Position numbers and translations under genes: made by a program. The notes beneath the pieces were generated by a model. That model had not been told where the DNA came from. It did no database searches and saw only the letters and a program-made list of their open reading frames with translations. 64,000 nucleotides of DNA from Simmondsia chinensis (Eukaryota > Streptophyta > Magnoliopsida > Caryophyllales > Simmondsiaceae), in contig JAGTTD010000005.1 in assembly GCA_018398585.1 (NCBI GenBank), positions 36,210,750 to 36,274,749 on the forward strand, written 5' to 3'. Position 1 is the first letter of the stretch. Each line of letters begins with the position of its first letter. This document shows positions 4,449-63,018 of this stretch, piece by piece.

Positions 4449-7400
4449 CTGACACATTAGATGAAGCTCTCCTTCCTCGGGATGAATGCCAAAATCTCCT
4501 GAAACTTCTAACGGAACACTGCCAAACCAGCCACTTGCATTGGGCAAAAATATTTGCTGACCACGAAAAGATAGGTTTGCTGACATGTCCTGAAAAACAA
4601 ATTTCACATAATCACACTACCTCCATAATTTAAAAGCTAGTTGGTCAGCTAGTTCTATAATCTTTCCAAAAACTTTTGTCCACTGATAATATATAATCTT
4701 ATGTTTAATTTCCCTTACACAATGTAAAAATGGAACAAGATTGTACAAAATTGTGTAATCCTAAAAAATTCTTACATAAGGTTGAGAAATAAACTTACAG
4801 AAAGGCAAAACTCAATAGAACTGTGTAATGACTAAGGTTTTCCTCAGCTTTGAGGGATAATCTGAGTAAAACCATTTATAAAACACAAGAGGCCCACATG
4901 GTTTTCATTGATCGACAATAGAAGCCATTCATCTCTTAAGGCGGACAATAGAGCAATACAGGGATAGACAAAAGGATCTCCACATGGTTTTCATTTGATT
5001 TGGAGAAGGCATATGATAGGGTGCCAAGAGAGGGGTTCTAGAGAAGAAAGGCATCCCCGTGCCTTATATCCTAGCCATTAGAGTTATGTACGAGGACGCA
5101 CAAACTAATGTGCGTACTGCGGAAGGGGAGACAAACACTTCCCCCATTACAATTGGGGTACACAAAGGATCTGCCCTGAAGTCCTTTCTGTTTATTCTGG
5201 TTATGGACAAGCTCACTAAGCATATCCAAGGGGGTGTGCCGTGGTGCATGTTTTTCACAGATAACATAGTTTGGTTGGGGGAGTCTTGAGAAGAAGTAAA
5301 TGAGAAGCCGGAACTTTGTAGAAGGGCTTTGGAATCGAAAGGCTTACAACTTAGTAGATCTAAGACCGAGTATATGCAACTTCAGTTTTGTACCTCCACT
5401 AGGCCTAGCATAGAAGACGTCAAGATTGGATTGGAGCCCATACCGAAAAAAGAGTGTTTTAGATACTTGAGTTCCATGATACAGCACGACGGCGAAGTTG
5501 ACAAGGATGTCAACAGCCGTATTAAAGTAGGCTGGCATAAATAGAGGATAGCCTCTGCGGTATTTTGCGATAGAATATAAACGATACCATACACAGAAGA
5601 TGAAGGTGGCAGAGATGAGGATGCTGCAGTGGATGTGTGGACACACAAGGAAGTATATGATAAAAAATGACGTAATAAAAAGCAAATTGGGCGTGGCCCC
5701 AATAGCGGATAAACCGAGAGAGCAACGTTTGTGGTGGTTTGAGCGTTAAGAGGAGACCAACCACTACCCCTGTCAGGAGATGCGAACAACTCGATACTAC
5801 GCTCGAAAGGAGAGGGAGAAGCAGGCCAAAGAAGAGATGGATAGAGACGATTCGACACGACCTCACCCACCTAAACCTAAATAAGGAGATGATCATAAAC
5901 AAAGTTGAGCGGAGAGCTAGCATAAGTGTAGCTGATATAGTGATTTAGAATAGTGGAGTTTATCTAGGCTAGGCTTAGCGCCCCTAGGCCTTTTGTGTCG
6001 CGCTGCTTGTTGCTTTGTCACCTTACTGCTTGTTGCTCTATGGCTTTATTGATTACTGTTGCTTTATGTTCTCTCTGTGCTATTGCTATTGCTATTACCA
6101 TTGCTATTGCTATTGCATTGCTATTGTTATTATGCTTTCAGGTTTCAGGTTGAGGGTCCTCAGACATGGCCTCCCTTTGGAGTAGCACCCTGGAGGAATA
6201 AGGCTGCATACATCTCACCCCCCCAGACCCTACATCAGCGAGAGCCTTTCAGGCACTGGGTTTGTTGTTGTTGTAAGAGGCCCACATGATTTAAAAATTC
6301 TCATTTTCCCTAGTCTTAATTGAACGAAGAGATGCTTACTACCCTCACATTTCCATGGTTTTGCCTTTTCACACTTCTATTCTTTCAAAATTTGGTAAAT
6401 TACAAAAAACTCCCTCGACTTTCTAGTAAAAGAAACAAAACCCTCTCACAAATAAAATCAAGCACTTAATCCCATTTTTCAGAAACCCTTCATCTCACCC
6501 TCAATCCATTAGTTAAGATATTAATTGTATTTTTACAGTTAATTTTATTTTACTGGGTGTTTCATGATTTTTATTCAAAACTATTTAATATTTTTTAAAA
6601 ATTTATGATCAAGTTTCATTTGCTTTAACTTGAAAAAACAAATACAATTAACATCAGAATGGAAATGGTAATGTAAAAGATGATTAGATAAGACCTCATT
6701 ATTAAATATAAAGACAAAATGAAGAAATATTGACGTAAATATAAGGGCAACTTTAGGGGAAAAAAGGCTGCCTTTTAACTAAAAAGTACTGAAATTCCTT
6801 GTATTATGAAACTAGATCACTATACCCTCGTTCTAGAAGGGTAAAATAGCCAAAAATAAAAATAAGGGCATAAACAACATATTTTGGGAGAATCGCAGAT
6901 GTTTTTGTAAAGTGCAAGGTAAAGTGCTTGTTTTTATTTGAGAGGAGGTTTTTTATTTTTTTGTCAAAAGTCAGAAGGGATTTCTACAAAATAGAACCCA
7001 AACATAGAGTAAGGCAGTCCCTCCTCAAAAGCAAATATATATTTGAAGATGAAGGGCACTTCATAGTATCTCCCAACTTAGAAATGGAAGTAAAGCTGCA
7101 AACAACATGGACCTGGAGAAGTAATACACGAAAGGCACGAGGATGAGGACATATATCAAGGGCAGATGTACAAACAATCTTCAGAAAAGATGAATTTGCA
7201 GAAAATACCCATGAAAGCTTTTACTATGGTATATAGATTCACCTAGACAACGCTTAGCTTTTTACAATGATATATGCAAACAAATGCTAGTTATCATAAT
7301 CATTATTCACAATTGAAAGAGAAACCTATTGGGTGAAAATATGAAACACAACGAACAAGAGATATTATACCAAGAAAGGCGAGGGAGCATCCAATATTTG

Positions 7401-19364: not shown

Positions 19365-19739
19365 CTCTAAGCAAAACATACTTCAAAGGTTAATTATAGA
19401 GCTTAGATCAATTATGGATTTTATTTCATTGGTACTACAATGTTTGACATTTTGTTTAAAATTACAGTCTATCAAAACGAGTAAAGCCTAATAGCACTAT
19501 TATTTTTTTAAGGTAAAGACAGACGCTTAGGACTTGACTCTGAGAGCAGGCTTTCCTAAGGAATCAAGAAGAACTAAATCCGGGAGCGCTTGATGGATAG
19601 GCACTTCCCAAAGGGAGACCCCCTTCTCGGTTGATGCCTTATTTGGTTAACCAAAGCCTAGTAGCACTATGATGCAAACAAAGGAACGATCAAAAACTAC
19701 TTACCATATATTTCATCATATCTATTTCTTAAAGAATTA

Positions 19740-19984
19740 GGGTTCATTTCTCAGACACTAATACATCGGATCCCATTAGAACTCCGAAGCTAAGCGTGTT
19801 TCAGCGAGAGTGGATAGGTGACCTTTTGGACGGTTCTCGTGTTGCCAACCCTATAAGGTCGGGGGTCCTCGAAAACAGCCTTTCGGCAGGGTTACACCCT
19901 GAAGGGGTAAGGCTGCATACATCCACCCCCCAGACCCTGCTTAGGCAGGAGCCCTTGAAGCATTGGGTCTGTTGTTGTTGTTGT
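19740..19984 (+). mobile_element. 5S rRNA-headed SINE, full length
   Basis: The head (about 19740-19846) follows 5S rRNA: 'cactaatacatcggatccc', 'ttagaactccgaagctaagc', 'gcgagagtggata', 'ggtgacctttt', 'ctcgtgttgcc'. The body follows with 'gggggtcctcgaaaacagcc', 'accctgaaggggtaaggctg', 'cccccagaccctgc' and 'gcattgggtctg', and it ends (TTG)n. The 5S internal promoter region is recognisable, with a gap of about ten bases around the intermediate element. No clear target duplication was found for this copy. Confidence 0.88.
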
Positions 19985-20414
19985 GGGTAGAGATCAATAC
20001 AAAAAAGAACAAAAATCAAAACATCAAGATCTACCTATGGCCACTTATTCATGGAGGTACAGGTAACTTGACCTAAATTAATTAGATATCCAACCAACCC
20101 GATCAATTTATGGTGGATTGGGATGTGAAAAATGAGTTTTAAATGGATTTGGTTATTGATATTGATAAATAAGTTTTGGGTCGAATTGGATTTGGATGAC
20201 ATAAAATCTAGCCTAGGCCTGACCCAAATACGGCCTGAAATTATATTTAGTGTATAAAGATTATTGGATAAGTGTTTTTTTGAATGAATTGTCTAATATT
20301 ATATTACTATAATTATATGTATTAAATCCAAAAAAAGAAAAAGATGCAACATGCAACAGTTAATCCAAATATTGATTGACTTTTATTGTACAATTGTTGC
20401 ATTATTATTATAAA

Positions 20415-22560
20415 TTTTTTTTTGATAATTATCGGCAAAGCCGAAGAACACACGGCCCTCGAAAAGACAAGGCCAAGGCCGCTCCGAAAACGGAGGGAGG
20501 AACAAGAAGGGCAACAAAAAACAAAGCCAAAACACCCAAAACCCGAAAAGACAGACAACGAGCACACGCAACCCAAAACACGCACAAACCAAACAAAAAC
20601 CGGGAAACCAAAAGAAGAAGAACCGAACCACCCACGCAGGAGACCACAGCAAGACCGAGCCTCAACGACAAAAATATCTGCCTCATTTAGCCAGCAAATC
20701 TGCCACCATGGGAGGGTCGAATCCATCGAAATTATATCCAATCCTTCTCCCCATGTCAATTACCCGCTCCGCTAGAAGGATCATCTCATCATACTTTTCT
20801 TCCGAGATCAAATCGCATCTATTCTCCCTATTTCGTTTCTTCTTCCTCCGAGGTGCCTTTGACGATTTCCCCCATTTGACCTGCTTCCCCTTATTTCGTT
20901 TGCCTGATTCCTTGTTCTTTTCCGGCGTACTTTTCCTAGGCGACATGTCCTCAAGAAATTTTTGCAGCTCCCGCTTTTCACTCTCATTTTTCTTTTGCTT
21001 CAACGCCTTTCTGTTCCTTTTTGTTAGTAAATCTTTTCCTTTTCTCATCCCATCTTCACTGGATCTCTCCACACAAGACTCTGACATGTACACGATAAAT
21101 GGCTCAAAACCTAGGGGAAATTCCGGTCCTGATGACACAGAATCATCTTCACTTGCGGAGTCACGAGTTAAATTCTCAAGATGCGATATCTGAGCGTGAG
21201 ACTGATCTAAACTGGCTATATCACTTTCCACCCATTGGATCAGAGGAGGCATATGCTGGTTTTCCGGCACAATCTGAACTGGATGGACACCACTTTGAGA
21301 TGGCGGATGGAGAGGAGAAGCATGCGGCCAGCTGCATTCCACAGACCACCTACCAATATACTGACCTTCAACGCGGATAGACAGCTGACCCCGTGACAGC
21401 TCATCAATGCTAACATCGGCATACACTGGCCTGATACTGTGACTTCCATGATCCCCTTCCCTCAACACTCCTATCCTATGAATAGGGGAATGTTGTGTCA
21501 GTGTGGCAGGGCGCACTAGGGTAGAGCATTGATGTTCCGGTTGCGGACCCCATGTTGAAAAGGTCCGTTCTCTCGCTATTCTAGTCGACGCAGCTAAAGC
21601 AACAGCACTAGGAGAGTAATCTGAAATCAGCTCTGTCCTGCCCTCCTTGACCAGGCCCAATCGGGTCACCCCATTAAAATGGACTTGCACCATTTGAGGA
21701 ATCAGTGAAGGTGAGCATGTTTCGATGAGAAATCTGGCAGCATCAATGCATCTCATGGATGACATCCTCGAGTCCGCCCTGATAAACTTCCCCCATAATC
21801 CCGCGAGGTCAGAAAAGCATTCCTTAGCCCAACATTGGACAGGCAGACCAAAAACCTCAATCCATACTCTGCTGTTAAGTGAGCCAAGAATCTCGCCAGA
21901 GTATTTAGAAACCTTGCTGAATTTCCTAAGCAGAACCTTGCGATGGGGGCCGAGGTAGAGCTCCACAGTCTCATCGGAATTACAGACCAGGACGAATGTG
22001 TTGGTGCTTAGCCCTTTAGGGGTTAAGCCGTGAAGGTCGTTCTATGTGATAAAGGTGAGAATACTATCCAGACTCGCCTCACCCGATGTGTGCGCAATAA
22101 TAGACCGCTGAAGCCAATCCTCCACATTCTTGTTGGTGTTTGAAACCACGATCCTTGGAATGTCAGAACCTACATAGTCTTTGGTCTGAGTACGAGGTGT
22201 CACATCCTGAACATGTAATCGGCCGGTGTCTCTGCTCTGCTGAAAGACCCTAGAATGATACTGGCTTCGGCCTGATGACTCCGTTGATCTTCTTGGTGGG
22301 TTAGCCCATTCAACCCTAAGCTTAGCTTTCACCACCCATCTACTATTCATAGTTGAAATTGCTCTAGCAGCTTCCCTCGGATTATGAAATCGGACAAAAC
22401 CATATGAGCATCTAGACCGTAGCCTCTTCTTAGCAGGAACAAATACATCATAAACTGACCTAAAATTACGGAAGACATACTTGAGCCAGGAATTTGTTGT
22501 TCTCTCAAGTAAGCCATCAACGAAAATGGACACCGTTTCTCGGGGTATTGGCATTGGTCT
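20415..22560 (-). mobile_element. LINE with ORF1 but no ORF2 (half-LINE)
   Basis: On the minus strand, ORF1 (22554-20683) is followed by only ~265 bp of G/T-rich 3'UTR and an A-tail at 20424-20415. The endonuclease and reverse transcriptase (normally ~3.5-4 kb) are absent. The 3' terminus matches that of the tail-only copy at 16423-16704. A GC-rich stretch up to about 23110 may be the element's 5'UTR and promoter. Confidence 0.8.
20683..22554 (-). pseudogene. LINE ORF1 protein with RRM, one in-frame stop
   Basis: A single frame of 623 codons is broken only by a TAG at 22044-22042; the reading frame is the same on both sides. Residues ~8-85 form an RNA-recognition motif, with SIFVDGL as RNP2 and CSYGFVRF as RNP1. 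The middle carries a DUF4283-style block (VWIEVFGLPVQCW, then WGKFIRAD), typical of ORF1 of plant L1-type LINEs. The C-terminal ~120 residues are very basic (KRNRKALKQKK, RRKKKRNREN), fitting RNA binding. The near-intact state suggests a recent insertion or selection on ORF1 in the source element. Confidence 0.85.
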
Positions 22561-23125
22561 TCTAGTTAAAATGAAAAAATGATGGAAGAGAAGGGGGGTG
22601 GTGGGTCTGTTGGTGGTGGTAGTAGGAGGAGGGATAGGGTTAATGTTTGTATGAAGAGGAGTATAAGTGGAGAGGTGGTGGGTGGCAGTGGCGATGGCGG
22701 ACGTCCGGTGCGGGGAGCCGGTACCGGTGGCGCTGGTGGTGGTCTATTATTGATTAGGAGAGATGGGGGGGGCGGAGTGTTGGAGAGAGAAAATGGGTGA
22801 TTAGGGATGATGAGGGGTAAAGCGTTTTTGATGGAGAGTCAGAATATTGGAGGCGATTTGTGGCGTTTGTTGGTGTAGATGGAGGCCGGAACGGGAAGTC
22901 GGAGGAGAAGACGAAGTTGATGGGGTAGACGGTGGCAGAGGTTGGGGTTGATGATGACGGATGGACAAATTGCTTGTACGAACGGAATGGCGAGGCGGCG
23001 AGGATTTTGGTGGTGCAACTCCGGCGCCCTGACTCCGGGTGACACGCCCTCACACGCCGAACCTTAGCGGTGCGTGGGTGTCCTGTAGCTAGCCGTTGTG
23101 AGAGAGAGAAAGCCCCTGTACAAGC
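22561..23125 (-). other. GC-rich region, possible LINE 5'UTR/promoter
   Basis: Markedly more GC-rich than its surroundings, and it directly precedes ORF1 of the half-LINE. An open frame at 23158-22754 has low-complexity Ser/Pro/Thr composition and is probably not coding. It ends at the foldback element at 23126. Confidence 0.45.
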
Positions 23126-25184: not shown

Positions 25185-26110
25185 TCAGGAAGGATAAAAG
25201 TAAAGAGAGATAAATAACTTACTTTTATTTAATAACTGGGTAAAAGGATAAGGTAAAAAAATTATAGAAAAAATAAGTATAAAATTGTCCAAATTTTTTA
25301 AAAACTTATCTTCTCTTCCTTTACCCCAAATTTAGGGTTAAAACAATAGGGGAAAGAGAGGTAAAGGGGAATAATGCTAAGGAAAAAAAACAACATTTCT
25401 AATGGCTCAAGGGCTCCCGCCTAAGTAGGGTCTCAGAGGGGTAGATGTACGTAGCCTTCTCCCTTCAGGGTGCTACCCTGAAGGGAGACTGTTTCAGAGA
25501 ACTCCTAACCCAAGGGGTACACGAGGACTTTTCAGGAGGTCATTTATCTTGGTACTATACTCGTCCAAGCGTGTTTAACTTCGGAGTTCTACTTGCTTTG
25601 TTTGGCAACTGGGTCAAGGGGGGTAAAGAGGATTAAAGAGGGGAGGATAAGGTAATATCCTACCCTTATTTAGATATGTTAAATTAAGAATGGTAAAGGT
25701 AAAGAGGGGTAAATGAGTTACCCTTATTTGACAATTGGGTAAAGGGGTAAGGGTAAAGAAAGTTGTAGTTAAAATAAGGATAAAAGTGTCCAATAATTTT
25801 AAAAAATTACCCTTGTCCTTATTTACCCCTCAATTTGGGGGTTAAAAAAATTGGGGGTAATGGGGGGTAAAGGGGGTTAAGAAATTTACCCTCCATTATT
25901 CCCTTTTACCCCTTGAACAAATATGTCAAATAAGAATAAAAAATTACCCTCTTTTACCCTTACTCCTCTTTACCCCCTCGCCAAACAGGGGTAAGGGAAA
26001 CTTATCTCCTTTACCTCTCTTAAAAATTTGTCAAATAAGGGTAAGAGTTTACTTCCATTACCCTATTACCAAAAAAGGGAAAGGCTTTCTAGTGCTAAGG
26101 GAAAAAAAAA
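25185..26110. repeat. 'gggtaaagg' MITE array, interrupted by a SINE
   Basis: Purine-rich units like 'gggtaaaggggtaa' on one side and complementary 'ttacccctttaccc' units on the other make a large self-complementary region. The sequence 'aatgctaaggaaaaaaaa' recurs near 25374 and 26092. A 5S-headed SINE interrupts it at 25402-25592. Related fragments lie at 36.6-37.0 and 43.9-44.05 kb. Confidence 0.55.
25402..25592 (-). mobile_element. 5S rRNA-headed SINE, 5' end trimmed
   Basis: On the minus strand: 'tagaactccgaagttaaac', 'gcttggacgagtatagtacc', 'gacctcctgaaaagtcctcg' (5S), then the body with 'cagtctcccttcaggg', 'gaaggctacgtacatc' and 'gcccttgagcc'. The first ~35 bases of the 5S head are missing. 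Confidence 0.82.
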
Positions 26111-29800: not shown

Positions 29801-32800
29801 TAATTTTCGTTTAAACTTGGGAAAATAACGTAAGTCCCTCTGAACTATGCCATTAAACTGATGTAGCATAATTGCTACCCGCAAAACCAAACAGAACAAT
29901 ATTATTCTTTAAAACTAGAAACAATAAATTAGAACTCTATATTTACTGAAAAAAGCTAATTCCTATTGATAATTTAGGAGATAAATACTAAATTAATAAG
30001 GGAACTACTTAATTATTCTACTAATTAAAATAAAGGTGACTAAAATATTTTAGTGATAGAATAGATATTCTATTTTATTCCTATCCAATAGTCTAACAAA
30101 ATTCGATAAAATATTATATCTTCCACAATCATTAAATCTCTTCTTTTGTGCTGCATCTATTCCCCCTTTATTTAAAAAAAAACTTGACCTCTAATTTTGA
30201 ACAAGCATAGAGAAAGAAAACTATGGCAAATGTCTGCCGGAGTGTGGGGCTCCTTCTGGATGTAAAGGCATACTTTTCGCCTTTGGGGAGAACGATTGGC
30301 GAACTCTTTGGCTAAGATGAGATCAATGTGAAGGGTCTCCATGTTATCATTATCATACTCACCATCATCATGTGTACATATGAAATAATTCAATATAATC
30401 TTGCTGCTCTTCTTTCACTTCACCTTGCTCTTCATTTTTGAATTCATTTGTTTCTTCTTGAACTTCTTAGGATGTTATTAATTGGGGAGGAAGTTAGTAT
30501 TTTGGATTTGGATTGTAAGGAAGCTCATAAGTTGGTACAAGGGAGGAAGTTGGAGTAGTTGCATCATGATAAACCCTAAATACACTTGGGCCTTCTCTAA
30601 TAGAAGCACATACAACTAGTGATGGATTTTGAAATCTAAGAAAGTGGATTAAACATATAAACATAAAAAATAAATAAATTATATAATTTATTAGTTTGGC
30701 CAAGCTCCTTTCTTCAGAAAAAAAATGCTTCTTTTCAAGAAAAAGCACTTTTTTCTAGGATTTGAGGGTGTTTGACTCTAAAATAAAAATGCTTTTAAAT
30801 AAAAGCAAAATCTATTTTTCATCTTTAAGTAGAAGGAGAAAAATAATGCTTCTCCTTTGATGTAGAAGTAGAAGCAAAGACTAAAATTTTTCAGACAAAA
30901 ATGCGTCTATCTGCAAAAAGTTCTTGAAAAAAGTAGTTTTTTTTATAGCTTGGCCAAATAGGCCTGAAGTAGTTGTCTATGTTGGCCTGATAATGTGGCA
31001 TTTGTCACATAGATAATTACTTTGATTCTTTTCATTTCGACAGGGCTTACAAAAGAGTAGGTGTTTGCCACACAGGCTTCGCATCCCAACTTGGCAGTCC
31101 GCAAATGTGCAGCTGGGCAGATTTTTTTCAAACAGTGATGAGAAGCTCGGAAACCTCCCTTCGTTTTCTCTTTCTTTCATGGCTGCGCCTACCTTCTTTC
31201 TTAGCTTGCATCTGAAGCTGCTTATGGAACGTAGTGTTCCATTTTGCTCTGAGATTTGCGAACCTGTCTCTTTGTTAGAGCCGTCAGACAATGATGACAG
31301 ATTGGTTGATTTTGACTCTTCCACTGTTGAAGATCACTCTTGTAGGGCGTCAATGTCCGAAGGAAGTAGTCCGAGGATTGTGGTGAGAGATACAAAGATG
31401 GAAGCTTTCTCAAACGTAACTTTGCGGAATGATGCTGAAGGTCCGAGTAATAGACCGTCTGAGTGTCCTCAAGATCTTCTAAAAAACGGTGCTGATTTAA
31501 TCAGTGGATCAGAGAAAGGAAAAGATATCCAGGGAGATACCGAAGAGGTCATTGTATTGGCACTTCCTTCAGGTCAAAGTGATCAGCTTTCACATGACAA
31601 GGCCAGGCCACGTTGCTATCCGATCAATGGAATCACAGTTGAAATTCCATCTTTTAATCCAGTTGAGAAAGATGATGATACCGGGTTGCAAAATAATCCG
31701 CATCGTAGTGATTCGGCATGGAACATGGCTGACGATTATTTTTGCAGCCCAAATCCCACTTCTGCTAGAAGTTTCTGGCATCAGAGTAGGACGAACGGCT
31801 CAAGTTCATCATCGCGGAATCTGGTGCTCGGTTTGCCTGATGGAAAAGAAGACTTTCTTCGCAATGGCCTCAGCAACGGTCCTAAGAAGCCACGAACTCA
31901 AGTTTCATATTCTGCCCCTTTTGGAAGTCCCGATCTTGGCTCACGAAATAAAATTCATCACTCCAAAGGCTTTTCTCATAAACGTATCAGACGAGCCAGT
32001 GAGAGGAGATCGTCAGAAGCTTCTAGAAGTCCACAGAGAAGTCCAGAGTTCTTTTCATGTGATGCGAATGTATTGGTCACACATGGGGACTGTGGACGGA
32101 GAGAATATGGGGCCCGAGTTGTTCTTGAGCTTGTCGACCATAACGAGTGGATGCTTGCTGTAAAACTTTCTGGGGCCACAAGATATTCTTACAAGGCGCA
32201 CCAGTTTCTGCAGCCTGGAACAGTCAACCGGTACACGCATGCTATGATGTGGAAAGGAGGAAAAGACTGGATTTTGGAGTTTTCTGATAGGACTCAGTGG
32301 ATAGTGTTCAAGGAGATGCACGAAGAGTGCTTCAATCGCAACATTCGTGCTGCTTCTGTGAAGAATATTCCAATACCTGGGGTCCGCCTTATTGAAGAAA
32401 GCGAGGATAACAGTGTAGAGGTACTATTTGTTCGGCCTTCTCCCAAGTACTATCGACAGATAGAAACGGATGTTGACCTGGCTATGGATCCAACACGAGT
32501 TCTGTATGACATGGACAGCGATGACGAGCAGTGGATTGGGAAAATTAGATCCTCAGATGTGTGTCAGAGCGGTTCTGTAGATATTTCAGATGAAATTTTT
32601 GAGAAGATGATGGACGTTTTTGAGAAAGTTGCATATTCCAAACAGCGGGATGACTTAACTTCTGATGAACTCGAGGAGTTTGCAGAGGATGTTGGAACAA
32701 TGGAATCAGTCAAAATCATTTACGACCACTGGCGTGAAAAGAGACGAAAAAAGGGAATGCCTTTAATCCGGCATCTCCAGGTAGCTTTAGTCTAGCCTTT

Positions 32801-43093: not shown

Positions 43094-45240
43094 ATGGCAA
43101 AAATAGCTATAATAATAATGATAATTATGGGATTGATGATGAAGGGAGAAGGAGCAACATTTCAAGAGTGCTATGTGCCATGTTATATTTTATGTGCAAT
43201 TCAACCAACTCATACACTTTCTTATTGTGCTTTTGAGTGTCTTAGAGATTGTATTATCCCTTCTATTAATGCCACTCATCCTTTTGGTCCCTTTCAATTT
43301 TGCCATCTCGGGTGTGCTACGACGCACTGCACCAACATCAGCAGCTCTCGTAATCCCGGTATGTATCTGTTCTGTTTTCTTTTGTTTTTCGATAGTTGTA
43401 GTAGGGAGGAGTATCGATCGATAGATTTGGCTAATGGGTTGGCTTGGATTGATCAGTGACTGAAATTGCTCGGCTTAGTGGTAGTTATCGTAGGGATGCA
43501 TTGCACCAACCTCAGCAGCTCTCACAAGCTCAGTGTGTATCTGTTCTATTTTCTTTTGTTTTTCGATTGTTATAGTAGGGAGGAGTGTAGATCGATAGAT
43601 ATGGCTAATGGGTTGGCTTGGATCGATTAGTGACTGAAACTGCTTGGCTTGTTGGTAGTTATAATGCGGATGTACTGCACCAACTTCAGCAGCTCTCACA
43701 AGCCTAATGTGTATTTGTTCTGTTTTTCAATAGTTATGGTTGGGATGAGTAGCGACCAACGGATATGGCCAATGGGTTGGCCCAAGTCGGCTAGTGACCC
43801 AAACTGCTTGGCCTATCGGTACCCGTGCATGCATACTTAGGATGTAGAAGAACATAACATGAGTGATTCGGCATATTGAGATTCCTATATTTCCACTAGG
43901 GTTAAGGGTAACTCATCTGCTCCTCTTTAAACATATTCAAATAAGAGTAGGATAACCATTTACCTTTGTTCTCTTGTATTCTTCTTTACCCTCCCCGTCT
44001 TTACTTCTTACTACCCATCCTTTACCAAATTGCCAAACGGAGAGCAAAATAACTAAATGTTTGATGAGCTACTTGTGTTTGAATTGGTAGGGCTTGCTTG
44101 TGTTCGTTTTGGGGAGCTCAATAGCTTATTCAATTAACTTAAAGTAGGCTTGACAAGTTTAATAAGCTACATTTAAATATTTGCGAAAATATTTGATAAG
44201 AACTTGTTAAGGACTTTGTACCTCGATAATGAATTGATAATGGCTTGACAAGATGGACTTGATAGCGAACTTGACTCATTTATGTTTCCACGTTGCGCAA
44301 CACGTGAGTTAAGAATAGCGTATGTGAGTTAAATGTGAATCCCAATATATAAGCCTAGTAAGTTACTCTACCAAATACCAATTGGTTTTAGTATGTAATC
44401 TCACTTGGGATATGTGGACATTGTATGTTCCAACTCTGTGAGTCGGGGCTAAAAGGCCCGGCAAAATTTAACATGATATTAGAGCGAGTGGATGATCCCG
44501 GGCTCTTATTTGTCGGCACCAGCCAGAATATGTTTTATAAAAAAAATTCTAGGAAACAACCTCTCTACAGATATAAAAGCAGGATTAACAAAACCAAATA
44601 CAACTTAATTTATCTCTCGCCCGGATATGTTATATAAAAAAGTATACAGTAGTAGTATATAACTTGAATAACTCACAGAATTCCATATAACTTCATAAAC
44701 AGATTAAAGGAACATACCCAATGCCTCAAGGCCTCCCACCTACGCAGGGTTTGGGGGGGCGGATGTACGCAGCCTTCTCCCTTCAGGGTGTTAACCTGAA
44801 GAGAGGCTGTTTTCCAGTGCCCTCAACCTGAGGGTAAGGACTTCCCACGAGGTCACCCATCCTGGTACTAGTCTTGCTCAAGCGCGCTTAACTTCGGAGC
44901 TCTAATGGGATCCGGTGACGGCGTGTTGGTGCCCTCTCTGGCTTCATAAACAGATTAAACATGTTAAAATTAAGTCATTGACCTAATCCAAGCCCAAAAC
45001 CAAATCCGAACCATTTACTTAAACGGGTTAAACGTGTAAGCCCAAATTCAACCTAACTCTAGAACCCTCGACCCAAACTCACTACTTTCATATCATTTTC
45101 GTATCATTTTAGCATATCGTTTCAGATTAGATGAATTTTTACTTAAAAAAATTGAAATTATTGCAGGTGGAAAGGAAGTAGAAGGATGTGTAAACTCTTG
45201 TGCCGGGGTTTGCAAGAAGAATTACCTCATGGCTCCATAA
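43094..45240 (+). CDS. Thionin-like secreted cysteine-rich protein, two exons
   Basis: Exon 1 is 43094-43358 and exon 2 is 45167-45240, joined in frame (339 nt, 112 codons) at GT/AG sites. Residues 1-20 are a hydrophobic signal peptide ending near GEGA. The mature chain has 12 cysteines, nine in exon 1 and three in exon 2. Its spacing resembles the plant 'thionin-like protein 2' group (Arabidopsis At1g12660 type), which are predicted secreted defence or reproductive peptides without proven toxicity. Exon 1 ends inside the first copy of a triplicated segment, so only the first of three possible donors is used in this model. The 1.8-kb intron holds a 5S-headed SINE. Confidence 0.82.
43310..43820 (+). 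repeat. Three tandem copies of an exon-intron junction, period 174 bp
   Basis: 'tgcaccaac' followed by 'tcagcagctctc' begins at 43328, 43502 and 43676, exactly 174 bp apart each time. Each unit spans the last ~30 coding bases of thionin-like exon 1, the splice donor and ~140 bp of intron. Units 2 and 3 have decayed donors (AGTGTGTATC, AATGTGTATT). Confidence 0.9.
43915..44690. other. Intron repeats in the thionin-like gene
   Basis: Fragments of the 'tttaccc' MITE (43915-44045), a 'gctcgataagcttg' hAT-like fragment (44050-44280), and an LTR-like piece with a primer-site-like TGATATTAGAGC at 44474-44485. No coding sequence. Confidence 0.4.
44709..44941 (-). mobile_element. 5S rRNA-headed SINE, 233 bp, with perfect 18-bp target duplication
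   Basis: Flanked by identical CTTCATAAACAGATTAAA (44691-44708 and 44942-44959). On the minus strand the head reads 'cgtcaccggatcccattaga', 'gctccgaagttaagcgcgct', 'actagtaccaggatgggtga', 'cctcgtgggaagtcc': 5S rRNA with the box C region intact. The body follows ('aaaacagcctctcttcagg', 'gaaggctgcgtacatccgcc', 'aggccttgaggcattgggta'). The end is a short 'tgttcc' rather than a long (TTG)n. It lies in the thionin-like intron, antisense. Confidence 0.95.
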
Positions 45241-48035: not shown

Positions 48036-48145
48036 AATATACTCAGTGCCCCAAAGGCTCCCGCCTAAGTAGGGTCAGGGTATTATATCTGAAGAGAGGC
48101 TATTTCCGAGTGCCCCTTGACCCGAGGGTGAGGACTATATCATTG
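48036..48145 (-). mobile_element. SINE body copy, deleted
   Basis: Reverse orientation: 'cagtgccccaaaggctcccg', 'cctaagtagggtc', 'gaagagaggctatttccgag', 'gggtgaggact'. The last bases touch the 3' end of the 5S head; the rest of the head is lost. Confidence 0.65.
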
Positions 48146-56705: not shown

Positions 56706-57000
56706 AATTTATGTTTTATTTGTAATGAATTGGTGCACATATGAAGATCAATAAAATAAATAAGTCAAAAATATAATATATTCAATTTTAACCATTTTGA
56801 TGACCAAAAAAAACTTAAATTATATATATAGATAATTAATATTAAAAATATATAATATATTTATTTTTAATAAATACACTGTTAATCAAAAAATATCTTC
56901 CTTCTTATAAAAAAAGAAACCTTTAAGACCAATAACATCTCCACAAAAGATTATCACTCAATTCAAAACTCTCAACTTTCAATTTAATCTCCCTCCACAA

Positions 57001-58455
57001 ATGGAGGACCCTCAAACCCTAGAATCCCCAAATCCTCAAAACCCCAAATCCCCCAAATTCCCCTTAAATTTCCTCTCAAAATTGCGCCAAAATCTCACTT
57101 TTCAATCCAAATGGTCCGAACTCAACGGCGCAATGGGCGATTTAGGCACTTATATCCCCATAATTCTAGCCCTAACCCTGGCTAAGAATCTCAATTTGGG
57201 CACAACCCTATTGTTCACTGGAGTATACAACATCGTAACCGGCGCGATTTACGGTGTTCCGATGCCGGTTCAACCGATGAAATCTATTGCAGCCGTTGCG
57301 ATCACCGATCCCGGTTTTGGTATCCCTGAGGTAATGGCTGCTGGGATATGCACTGGTGGTGTTCTTTTTGTATTGGGTGTTAGTCAATTGATGGAATTTG
57401 TGTACAAGTTGATACCTTTATCTGTTGTTAGAGGGATTCAGCTCTCACAAGGGTTGTCATTTGCTATGTCTGCAGTTAAGTATGTAAGAAAGAAGCAGGA
57501 TTTTTCTAAGTCAAAGTCTGTAGGAGATAGAGATTGGTTAGGGTTAGATGGGATGCTTTTAGCTCTTGTTTGTGCTTGTTTTATTGTAATTGTGAATGGG
57601 GCAGGGGAGGAAAGGCAAGATGAGTGTGATTTAGGAGGTGGTTTAGGGTTAGAAGTTGAAGAAAATGAAAGAAATGAGAGAAATTTGAGACGGGGTTGGA
57701 GAAAAATCATGTTTTCAATTCCATCTGCATTGATAGTGTTCTTGTTAGGTGTTGTTTTGGCATTTGTTAGAGGTCCTAATGTTGTGAAAGGGTTCAAATT
57801 CGGACCGTCTCGGATTGAGATTGTTAAGATGAACAAACAATCTTGGAAACAAGGGTTCATTAAGGGCACTATACCGCAGCTGCCCTTATCGATCTTGAAC
57901 TCAGTTGTAGCGGTTTGTAAGTTGTCTTCTGATCTATTCCCGATGAAACGCACGTCGGCAACGTCGGTTTCAGTGACCGTAGGGTTGATGAACATGGTGG
58001 GTTGTTGGTTTGGGGCTATGCCGTGTTGTCATGGGGCGGGGGGGCTAGCAGGACAGTACAAATTTGGAGGGAGAAGTGGCGGGTGCGTGGCGATTCTAGG
58101 GGTGGCTAAGTTGGGCTTGGGGCTAGTTTTAGGGAGCTCAATAGTGAGGGCTCTAGACCGGTTTCCGGTTGGGGTTTTAGGGGTGCTTTTGTTGTTTGCT
58201 GGGTTAGAGTTAGCCATGGCTTGTAGGGACATGAACACAAAGTGGGAGTCATTTGTTATGTTGTTGGTCACTGCTGTTTCTCTTGTGGGTTCTGGTGCTG
58301 CTGTTGGGTTCCTTTGTGGTATTGTTGCTCACTTGCTTCTTAAGTTGAGGGATAAAGTGCAGCGGAATGAAAGCGCATCTGAGATTTTAGGTATTCAAAG
58401 CAAGTTTAATCGATGTATATATTACATATGTATATATGTGCTAATAGGTCCTTGA
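57001..58455 (+). CDS. MOT1: MOT1-type molybdate transporter, single exon
   Basis: 484 codons without introns, as usual for this family (Arabidopsis MOT1 proteins are about 460 residues). It imports molybdate across the plasma or endomembranes for molybdenum cofactor. Conserved blocks seen: GAMGDLGTYIPI at residues 43-54, PMPVQPMKSIAAVA at 87-100, and GLMNMVGCWFGAMPCCHGAG from about residue 327. About ten membrane segments are expected. A Glu-rich loop lies at about 200-225. The family core ends near residue 452 (LLKLRDKVQ). The ~30-residue tail looks unconserved, and its last codons and TGA lie in SINE-derived sequence. Whether it is MOT1;1 or MOT1;2 cannot be told. Confidence 0.95.
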   Translation: MEDPQTLESPNPQNPKSPKFPLNFLSKLRQNLTFQSKWSELNGAMGDLGTYIPIILALTLAKNLNLGTTLLFTGVYNIVTGAIYGVPMPVQPMKSIAAVAITDPGFGIPEVMAAGICTGGVLFVLGVSQLMEFVYKLIPLSVVRGIQLSQGLSFAMSAVKYVRKKQDFSKSKSVGDRDWLGLDGMLLALVCACFIVIVNGAGEERQDECDLGGGLGLEVEENERNERNLRRGWRKIMFSIPSALIVFLLGVVLAFVRGPNVVKGFKFGPSRIEIVKMNKQSWKQGFIKGTIPQLPLSILNSVVAVCKLSSDLFPMKRTSATSVSVTVGLMNMVGCWFGAMPCCHGAGGLAGQYKFGGRSGGCVAILGVAKLGLGLVLGSSIVRALDRFPVGVLGVLLLFAGLELAMACRDMNTKWESFVMLLVTAVSLVGSGAAVGFLCGIVAHLLLKLRDKVQRNESASEILGIQSKFNRCIYYICIYVLIGP

Positions 58456-62024: not shown

Positions 62025-63018
62025 ACCACCACCAACAACAACAGATCCAGTGCCTCAAAAGCTTCTGCATAAGCGGAGTTTGGGAACGATGGATGTACGC
62101 AGCCTTATCCCTTCGGGGTGTAACCCTATTGAGAGGCTGTTTTGGAGGACTTCTAACCTTATAGGGTTAGCAACACGAGGATTAGGGGTGTAAATGACCC
62201 GAGCTGGCTCACAAGGACTTGTGAGCCAGCTCAATATAAAGCTCGTATAGCTCGGCTCGTCACAAGCCCGAGCTGAGCTATCATGCTAAATGAGCCGAGC
62301 TTGAGCCTCACATAACTCAGGCTCGTGAGCCCGCGAGCCTAAACGAGCTTTATTATTAACATTTTAATTAACAATAATAATTGGTATGTGCATAACATTT
62401 ACTTCTACATTAATTGATATTGCTGGTTTCTAGTTATCCATATCTCATCTCAATGTTTAAAAAAGTTTCCCTTATCTATAATTAACGAACTTTTTCATTC
62501 CCACGAATGCATTTAATACTAGTTTGTTTTTCATTATTTCGAAGTCTACAAATGCATAATTTCAAAGCCTTTTCACGCCAGGAATTACTGGTCCATCTAA
62601 TGAAGCGTCAATAAGTTTTGCATGCCATTTATTGCTTCTTCATTTGAGGTGTTTTACAGTATTTGTTTCAGATTTCATCAATAAAATTAAGCTTCCACCA
62701 TTTTTCAAGTAATTCCCTACCGATTAAATCATGAGCGGACAATAATGACATTATGTTTTGTGAGCGTCGAGCCAAGCTTAAGCCCAAAATTTCTAGGCTT
62801 GGCAAGCTTCAAGCCGAGCTCGGGTCGAGCAAAATGATTTCGAGCCGAGCCTCGAGCTTGATAAGCACGGGCTCGGCTCGCTCGGCTTATTTACATGACT
62901 AACGAGGACTTTCCGGGAAGTGATCCATCCTAGTACTACTCTCACCCAAGCATGCTTAACTTCGGAATTGTAATGGGATTCGGTTGCATTAGTGCCTGGT
63001 AAATGATCCCTGGTGAAG
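62025..63018 (-). mobile_element. 5S rRNA-headed SINE split by a hAT MITE
   Basis: The head is at about 63012-62910 on the minus strand: 'gggatcatttaccaggcact', 'aatgcaaccgaatcccatta', 'gaagttaagcatgcttgggt', 'gagagtagtactaggatgg', a nearly full-length 5S sequence. The body is at 62174-62030, ending in (GTT)n and (GGT)n. The MITE sits just after the head. Diverged 16-mers CACGTGAGCCACCACC (62009-62024) and CACATGAACCATAACC (63019-63034) fit an old target duplication. Confidence 0.9.
62183..62901. mobile_element. hAT MITE, 719 bp, 8-bp target duplication
   Basis: The termini TAGGGGTGTAAATGACCCGA and, on the other strand, TAGTCATGTAAATAAGCCGA are typical of hAT. ACGAGGAT (62175-62182) and ACGAGGAC (62902-62909) differ by one base; the second form is the expected 5S sequence. 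Subterminal regions are dense in 'gagctcg' and 'gctcggctcg'. No transposase. Confidence 0.9.

Follow-up and report, generated by a model that had tools for sequence, protein, structure and literature searches.

A probable SINE3-type retroposon with a 5S rRNA head and a LINE-type tail in the genome of jojoba (Simmondsia chinensis)

Introduction

The closest described counterparts of the element reported here are the SINE3 elements of animals, among them zebrafish SINE3, AmnSINE1, HaSE3 and Ped-1, in which a head derived from 5S rRNA is joined to a tail derived from a LINE. A passage of a 2020 paper places SINE3 in vertebrates and some insects, and names an RTE-clade LINE as the element thought to mobilise the insect HaSE3 (PMC7245038); a list in another source enters the springhare Ped-1 with a BovB tail (PMC3747384), and a 5S-related SINE is reported from a fungus (PMC5063351). 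Going by these excerpts, the architecture of a 5S head and an RTE-type tail is already known, in the moth HaSE3 and the springhare Ped-1.

In plants, SINEs of the Angio-domain superfamily are defined by a conserved 37-bp Angio-domain at the 3' end and, like tobacco TS and the legume SINEs, have a tail in common with RTE-clade LINEs. In the passages that treat them, TS is described as ending in TTG repeats like its LINE (PMC3747384), and the legume SINEs as ending in Tn, their LINEs in (GTT)n, with a Tn-TA insertion signature (PMC13295347). As regards heads, a section of a 2022 review derives plant SINEs from tRNAs (PMC9033089); AnnoSINE includes a 5S option among its plant SINE classes, and the passage that lists it names no family (PMC8825457). 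Among plant retroelements, Cassandra, a TRIM that carries 5S within its LTRs, is known for a pol III promoter derived from 5S, as extracts of two papers describe (PMC10853983, PMC10886601). One of these extracts points to animal SINEs as the established example of elements acquiring a genic promoter such as that of 5S (PMC10853983), and the other speculates that the 5S promoter of Cassandra came from a SINE3 (PMC10886601).

Here we analyse an element in a 64-kb stretch of the S. chinensis genome (the window, meaning the whole stretch) that a first-pass annotation had read as a plant 5S-headed SINE inserted with a target duplication. We consider it very probable that the element is a non-autonomous, non-coding SINE of the SINE3 type, with a 5S rRNA head and an RTE-type LINE 3' tail, which pol III transcribes and an RTE-type LINE mobilises. 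It has the head and tail arrangement of SINE3, but the SINE3 systems named above are animal, whereas this element belongs to a plant, carries what appears to be the tail of a plant RTE-type LINE and has a young subfamily ending in a T-run. Its tail appears to be shared with RTE-type LINEs, as in tobacco TS, the legume SINEs and the Angio-domain superfamily, yet its head is 5S where the plant SINEs of the 2022 review are tRNA-derived. It resembles Cassandra in its 5S-derived, predicted pol III promoter; however, Cassandra is an LTR retrotransposon with 5S inside its LTRs and another integration route, and the element described here is non-LTR.

Results

An exact 18-mer, CTTCATAAACAGATTAAA, occurs at positions 44691-44708 and again at 44942-44959 of the window, with 233 bp in between, as seen in the window sequence and by blastn. 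The 18-bp duplication around a 233-bp unit that the first-pass annotation had proposed is therefore exact. The unit, at 44709-44941 on the minus strand, is a full-length copy of a subfamily that we call B, placed by its own sequence and by an alignment of 30 copies that includes it; the duplicate at 44942-44959 lies on its 5' side and that at 44691-44708 on its 3' side. The extent of 233 bp holds for what lies between the duplicates, but comparison with other copies suggests a canonical element with one more base at its 5' end, the A that precedes CCAAAG, and a T-run at its 3' end. Rfam model RF00001 matches the copy at 44942-44825 on the minus strand (64.5 bits, E 2.9e-11), in agreement with the 5S head originally proposed. 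Aligned with a host 5S gene, the copy begins with a 5' end that has diverged from 5S in subfamily B (44918-44941, minus strand), followed by a 5S core that corresponds to nucleotides 26-105 of the gene and would contain the internal pol III promoter (44838-44917, minus strand; consensus, same register, and Rfam); the RTE-type LINE 3' tail, placed by the consensus comparison given below, occupies 44711-44831 on the same strand. By the usual 5S numbering, box A should lie at about 44879-44893 and box C at about 44846-44863. Regions at both places are present, so that the box C region claimed for the unit stands; at the place that we take to be the intermediate element (IE) the copy departs from the family consensus by mutations, and on these grounds it may be dead or inactive.

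With the unit as query, blastn and nhmmer detected 13 copies with a tail in the window and a single head piece lying apart. Head and tail are both present in four copies, the others being truncated, and only two of these four reach the Rfam gathering score. The second is a copy of subfamily A at 19736-19985 (plus strand; RF00001, blastn/nhmmer and alignment) with a complete 5S head and a (TTG)n end; it gives the window's second Rfam 5S match (RF00001 at 19736-19850, 39.3 bits). The third, at 25392-25612 (minus strand; blastn/nhmmer and alignment), is divergent and eroded at its 5' end. The fourth, again of subfamily A and found by blastn/nhmmer, lies on the minus strand in two pieces, a 5' piece with the 5S head at 62903-63005 and a 3' piece with the end of the 5S and the LINE tail at 62040-62181. 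A convincing target duplication was absent from all three in our duplication test and is found, among the copies described here, only in the one at 44709-44941. Another copy, truncated at its 5' end, keeps the junction between 5S and tail (48036-48138, minus strand; blastn/nhmmer).

The 721 bp that interrupt the fourth copy (62182-62902) carry imperfect terminal inverted repeats (TTAG...CTAA), with TCCTCG at both edges, and resemble a non-autonomous DNA transposon. Genes surround the window's SINEs, such as a frame with a Pfam EPL1 match (enhancer-of-polycomb-like; 31026-32795) and a molybdate transporter 1-like (MOT1-like) gene (56911-58455). In a tree of 35 relatives chosen from 120 listed, the MOT1-like gene groups with Caryophyllaceae and Amaranthaceae (support 96/92), which puts the host among core Caryophyllales, on a lineage that split off ahead of these two families, a placement from one gene on a long branch; the highest single identity in the alignment, 77%, is to Hibiscus. 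Frames at 20683-22743 (minus strand) carry an RRM domain and DUF4283, as does ORF1 of some plant L1-type LINEs.

The head of the family is 5S and not tRNA. Over nucleotides 26-105 of a host 5S gene, the subfamily B consensus is identical at 77 of 80 positions and keeps the same offset from the start; both the first 25 nucleotides and the last part of the 5S have been replaced. In subfamily A, the majority sequence of six copies (a seventh, L092, was left out) is 94% identical over 104 columns to 5S nucleotides 12-114, and a short linker separates this part from the tail. The block retained in subfamily B holds box A, IE and box C at what we take to be their positions. ARAGORN found no tRNA in the window, where degenerate tRNA heads might escape detection. 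A pattern for an intact plant 5S core, at up to three mismatches, had no match in the window, since the copies there have diverged. The predicted fold of the consensus RNA is no better than that of shuffled sequences (z -0.82; 36 of 200 shuffles as good), and secondary structure was dropped as a functional mark. One fetched copy, L030 (G000:C16 near 4711990), carries an extra stretch of the 5S 3' end directly before its head, inside a target duplication visible by eye; this single copy looks as if it came from a head-to-tail dimer or from a longer form with a double 5S.

A loose first look with RF00001 gave 51,838 candidates in the genome, 47 of which were scored, and 46 of these 47 lie in arrays on a single contig (C8), the source of the host 5S gene used for comparison. 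Simple annotation of 5S in the host genome could be much inflated by the SINEs.

The non-5S body noted at first pass is real, and it proved to be a LINE-type 3' tail. A query of the tail alone (window 6143-6275) yielded 3,928 first-look candidates, of which 40 were scored; 20 loci were fetched. Nine of the 20, chosen as having several hundred upstream bases common to all nine, gave a LINE 3' consensus. To this consensus the SINE body is 83.6% identical over 122 nt in subfamily B and 84.8% over 132 nt in subfamily A; for the three other 5S-headed copies of the window the figure is 74-82%. The SINE thus has its tail in common with a LINE of its host. The LINE and subfamily A copies end in (GTT)n, and subfamily B copies in T-runs. 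Eight of the nine loci were translated and have reverse-transcriptase-like frames upstream, which we take to resemble an RTE-type reverse transcriptase in its C-terminal part. One LINE fragment matches 102 proteins; the few that are named come from the plants Malus, Platanthera, Chenopodium and Dendrobium, several are labelled reverse-transcriptase domain-containing, and one of the 102 is filed under the bacterium Chromobacterium. RVT_1 was found in all three matched proteins scanned, in one of them below the curated cut-off, and the three host LINE fragments themselves are weak in Pfam (RVT_1 E 0.11 for one). What is probably the partner LINE survives as a remnant within the window at 5239-6275 (plus strand); it finishes with the shared tail and (GTT)n, and was recognised by its upstream homology with other LINE loci and by the reverse-transcriptase-like frames of the fetched locus L041, which spans these positions. 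The tail, the (GTT)n end and the insertion signature described below point to a partner LINE in the RTE clade, and the SINE tail also seems to us to resemble the Angio-domain. Among tail-only copies, from the window and the fetched loci, eight of 20 have a target duplication scoring above 15 shuffles; six of these eight duplications lie inside the tail, as expected of 5'-truncated insertions.

Truncated LINE tails are abundant in the window, and a 5S retropseudogene could by chance have come to lie beside one and then have been carried along in segmental duplications. Genome-wide counts make this hardly conceivable. We searched the assembly (831 Mb in 35 contigs) for short patterns, whose counts span the whole genome and are free of the limit set by sampling only near copies. 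The 23-mer across the junction of 5S and tail in subfamily B has 10,452 matches at up to two mismatches (5,220 forward and 5,232 reverse), and its reversed control has none; the junction of subfamily A has 6,759 at up to three mismatches in 27 positions, again against none for the reversed control. Fusion of head and body is therefore not a matter of chance, and the two junctions together give 17,211 matches on both strands. Chance adjacency, the point on which the first-pass reading would have fallen, is ruled out by these thousands of fused junctions, and 21 of the 30 fetched copies have a credible target duplication of their own. A 22-mer from the 5' end of subfamily B likewise has 6,519 matches at up to two mismatches (control 0), and on one contig (C1, below 33.11 Mb) 24 of 58 exact 5' ends have an exact same-strand junction start 94-96 nt away, as counted by eye among exact matches. 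Sixteen 5-kb stretches (80 kb in all) contain four 5S-headed copies. Each stretch is the first half of one of 60 places drawn at random from 17 contigs of known length; the 16 were hand-picked for contig spread, the second eight at the time when the first result was obtained.

As had been suggested at first pass, the genome was searched with the 233-bp unit. A first look returned 7,380 candidates; scores were computed for the best 40, and 30 copies, the window copy (L001) included, were fetched. The other 39 scored copies are 91-94% identical to the window copy and cover nearly its full length. The consensus of the 30 is 237 nt long, and together with the subfamily B junction matches on both strands it describes a family that is short, non-coding and dispersed. 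Distances to this consensus are 1.3-4.2% in 28 of the 30 copies (mean about 2.4%), 5.9% in L030 and 6.75% in the window copy, values biased, like the rates of target duplication, towards young copies because the fetched copies are the nearest relatives of the window copy. By eye, the differences among the 30 are mostly private, with some shared sites, and in this nearest-copy sample such a pattern suggests that subfamily B arose in a young burst. There may be more subfamilies than A and B, as the copy at 25392 and a second copy at locus L010 look intermediate.

The flanks of the copies bear directly on how they were inserted. Scored against a null of 180 mismatched-flank pairs (maximum score 9), 22 of these 30 near relatives have a target duplication above the null maximum, and 21 of them, 12-23 bp long, are credible once L004, an AT repeat, is dropped. 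The remaining eight of the 30 have none above the null; L030, where a duplication is visible by eye, was missed by the test, and its extra 5' sequence is likely to blame. Duplications of this kind, typical of target-primed reverse transcription, thus characterise 21 of the 30 copies. Ten bases before the start of the duplication, 15 of the 21 have a T (background 0.33, binomial p 0.0004), and none of 200 upstream positions has a higher count. Positions -12 to -8 together hold 51 Ts, where the null mean is 34.3; eight of 10,000 random placements reach this number. Ten of the 21 duplications start with TA, where 1.7 are expected, although trimming of leading Ts favours this count. The Tn-TA signature of plant SINEs mobilised by RTE elements is therefore present, and this footprint of a T-stretch and TA corresponds to the RTE insertion signature as set out in part of PMC13295347.

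The same flanks argue against a second reading, in which the unit is a solo LTR or fragment of Cassandra, by virtue of the 5S promoter for which that plant mobile element is known. Duplications of 12-23 bp differ from the 5 bp that we take to be usual for such LTR elements, the 3' half is a LINE tail, and the elements start with A-CC and end in T-runs. Furthermore, in 28 of the 30 loci the 1.5 kb fetched contains no further 5S-like segment on the same strand (E <=1e-5, a threshold below which the short extra 5S piece of L030 falls), and the two exceptions, L004 and L010, carry separate 5S-headed SINE copies with tails of their own. Neither paired LTRs nor short duplications were found, and the length of the duplications, the identity of the tail and the lack of paired LTRs rule out a Cassandra LTR; we regard an origin from Cassandra as very improbable, if a shade less so than chance adjacency.

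Discussion

A third alternative accepts the element as a SINE and differs on its head, which would no longer act as a promoter, copies arising by pol II read-through or by recurrent template switching of the LINE onto 5S RNA. Template switching is a plausible route for the birth of such an element. The copies, however, have a common fusion point and diverge little from one consensus, which indicates that the fused unit itself has been copied, and the internal promoter falls in the region conserved at 77 of 80 positions, whereas the two ends of the 5S have decayed. We therefore hold this alternative to be improbable, though less remote than the other two, and prefer a SINE3-type element whose 5S-derived head includes a predicted internal promoter and whose structure, junction counts and target duplications support the original reading of a plant 5S-headed SINE. 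To that reading our analysis adds the RTE-type LINE tail as the body, further 5S-headed copies in the window and at least two subfamilies.

Judging from its sequence and from what is generally known of 5S genes, such an element might spread as follows. The 5S factors and pol III would read the retained internal control region, within nucleotides 26-105, and start at the first base. A real host 5S gene runs directly into TTTTT; the SINE consensus contains no TTTT, and with the 5S gene's own T-run terminator gone, the transcript would cross the tail and stop at a terminal or flanking T-run. A run of at least four Ts lies within 30 nt past the end in 15 of the 30 copies; the other 15 have none, so that termination is unsupported for them. 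The LINE protein would then recognise the shared tail, as its homology implies, and an enzyme of the LINE would presumably nick the target about ten bases downstream of a T-stretch, where the footprint lies, the SINE RNA being reverse-transcribed into the nick with 12-23 bp duplications as the outcome. Subfamily A, with its complete 5S head and a (GTT)n end like that of the LINE, is probably the older, and subfamily B, with a trimmed 5S and a T-run end, would represent a later expansion, with the window copy among its members.

We recognised no plant 5S-headed SINE among the matches listed in searches of the full-text literature, and the family is probably the first 5S-headed SINE in plants. 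Patterns for 5S box C plus tail, or for the 5S core alone, had no match in viral contigs, and among genome contigs they matched 17 bacterial or archaeal records, which we take as chance; these collections, of viruses and prokaryotes, are uninformative on distribution in plants. With moderate confidence, we lean towards seeing in the family the first land-plant lineage of the SINE3 type, born independently of the animal ones from 5S RNA and the tail of a plant RTE-type LINE, and grown, within a single core Caryophyllales genome, to a copy number above 15,000. It would also be a plant SINE3 of the sort postulated, with no plant example among the papers listed, as donor of the 5S promoter in the Cassandra LTR.

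For the host genome, thousands of dispersed 5S-like repeats would confuse both the annotation of 5S rRNA and the mapping of small RNAs. The family also provides a natural experiment on which 5S promoter parts a retroposon has to retain, as subfamily B has kept nucleotides 26-105 and lost both ends. The idea of a SINE3 donor for Cassandra is now open to direct comparison within a plant, and a plant family with thousands of copies means that capture of 5S by a LINE tail recurs across kingdoms.
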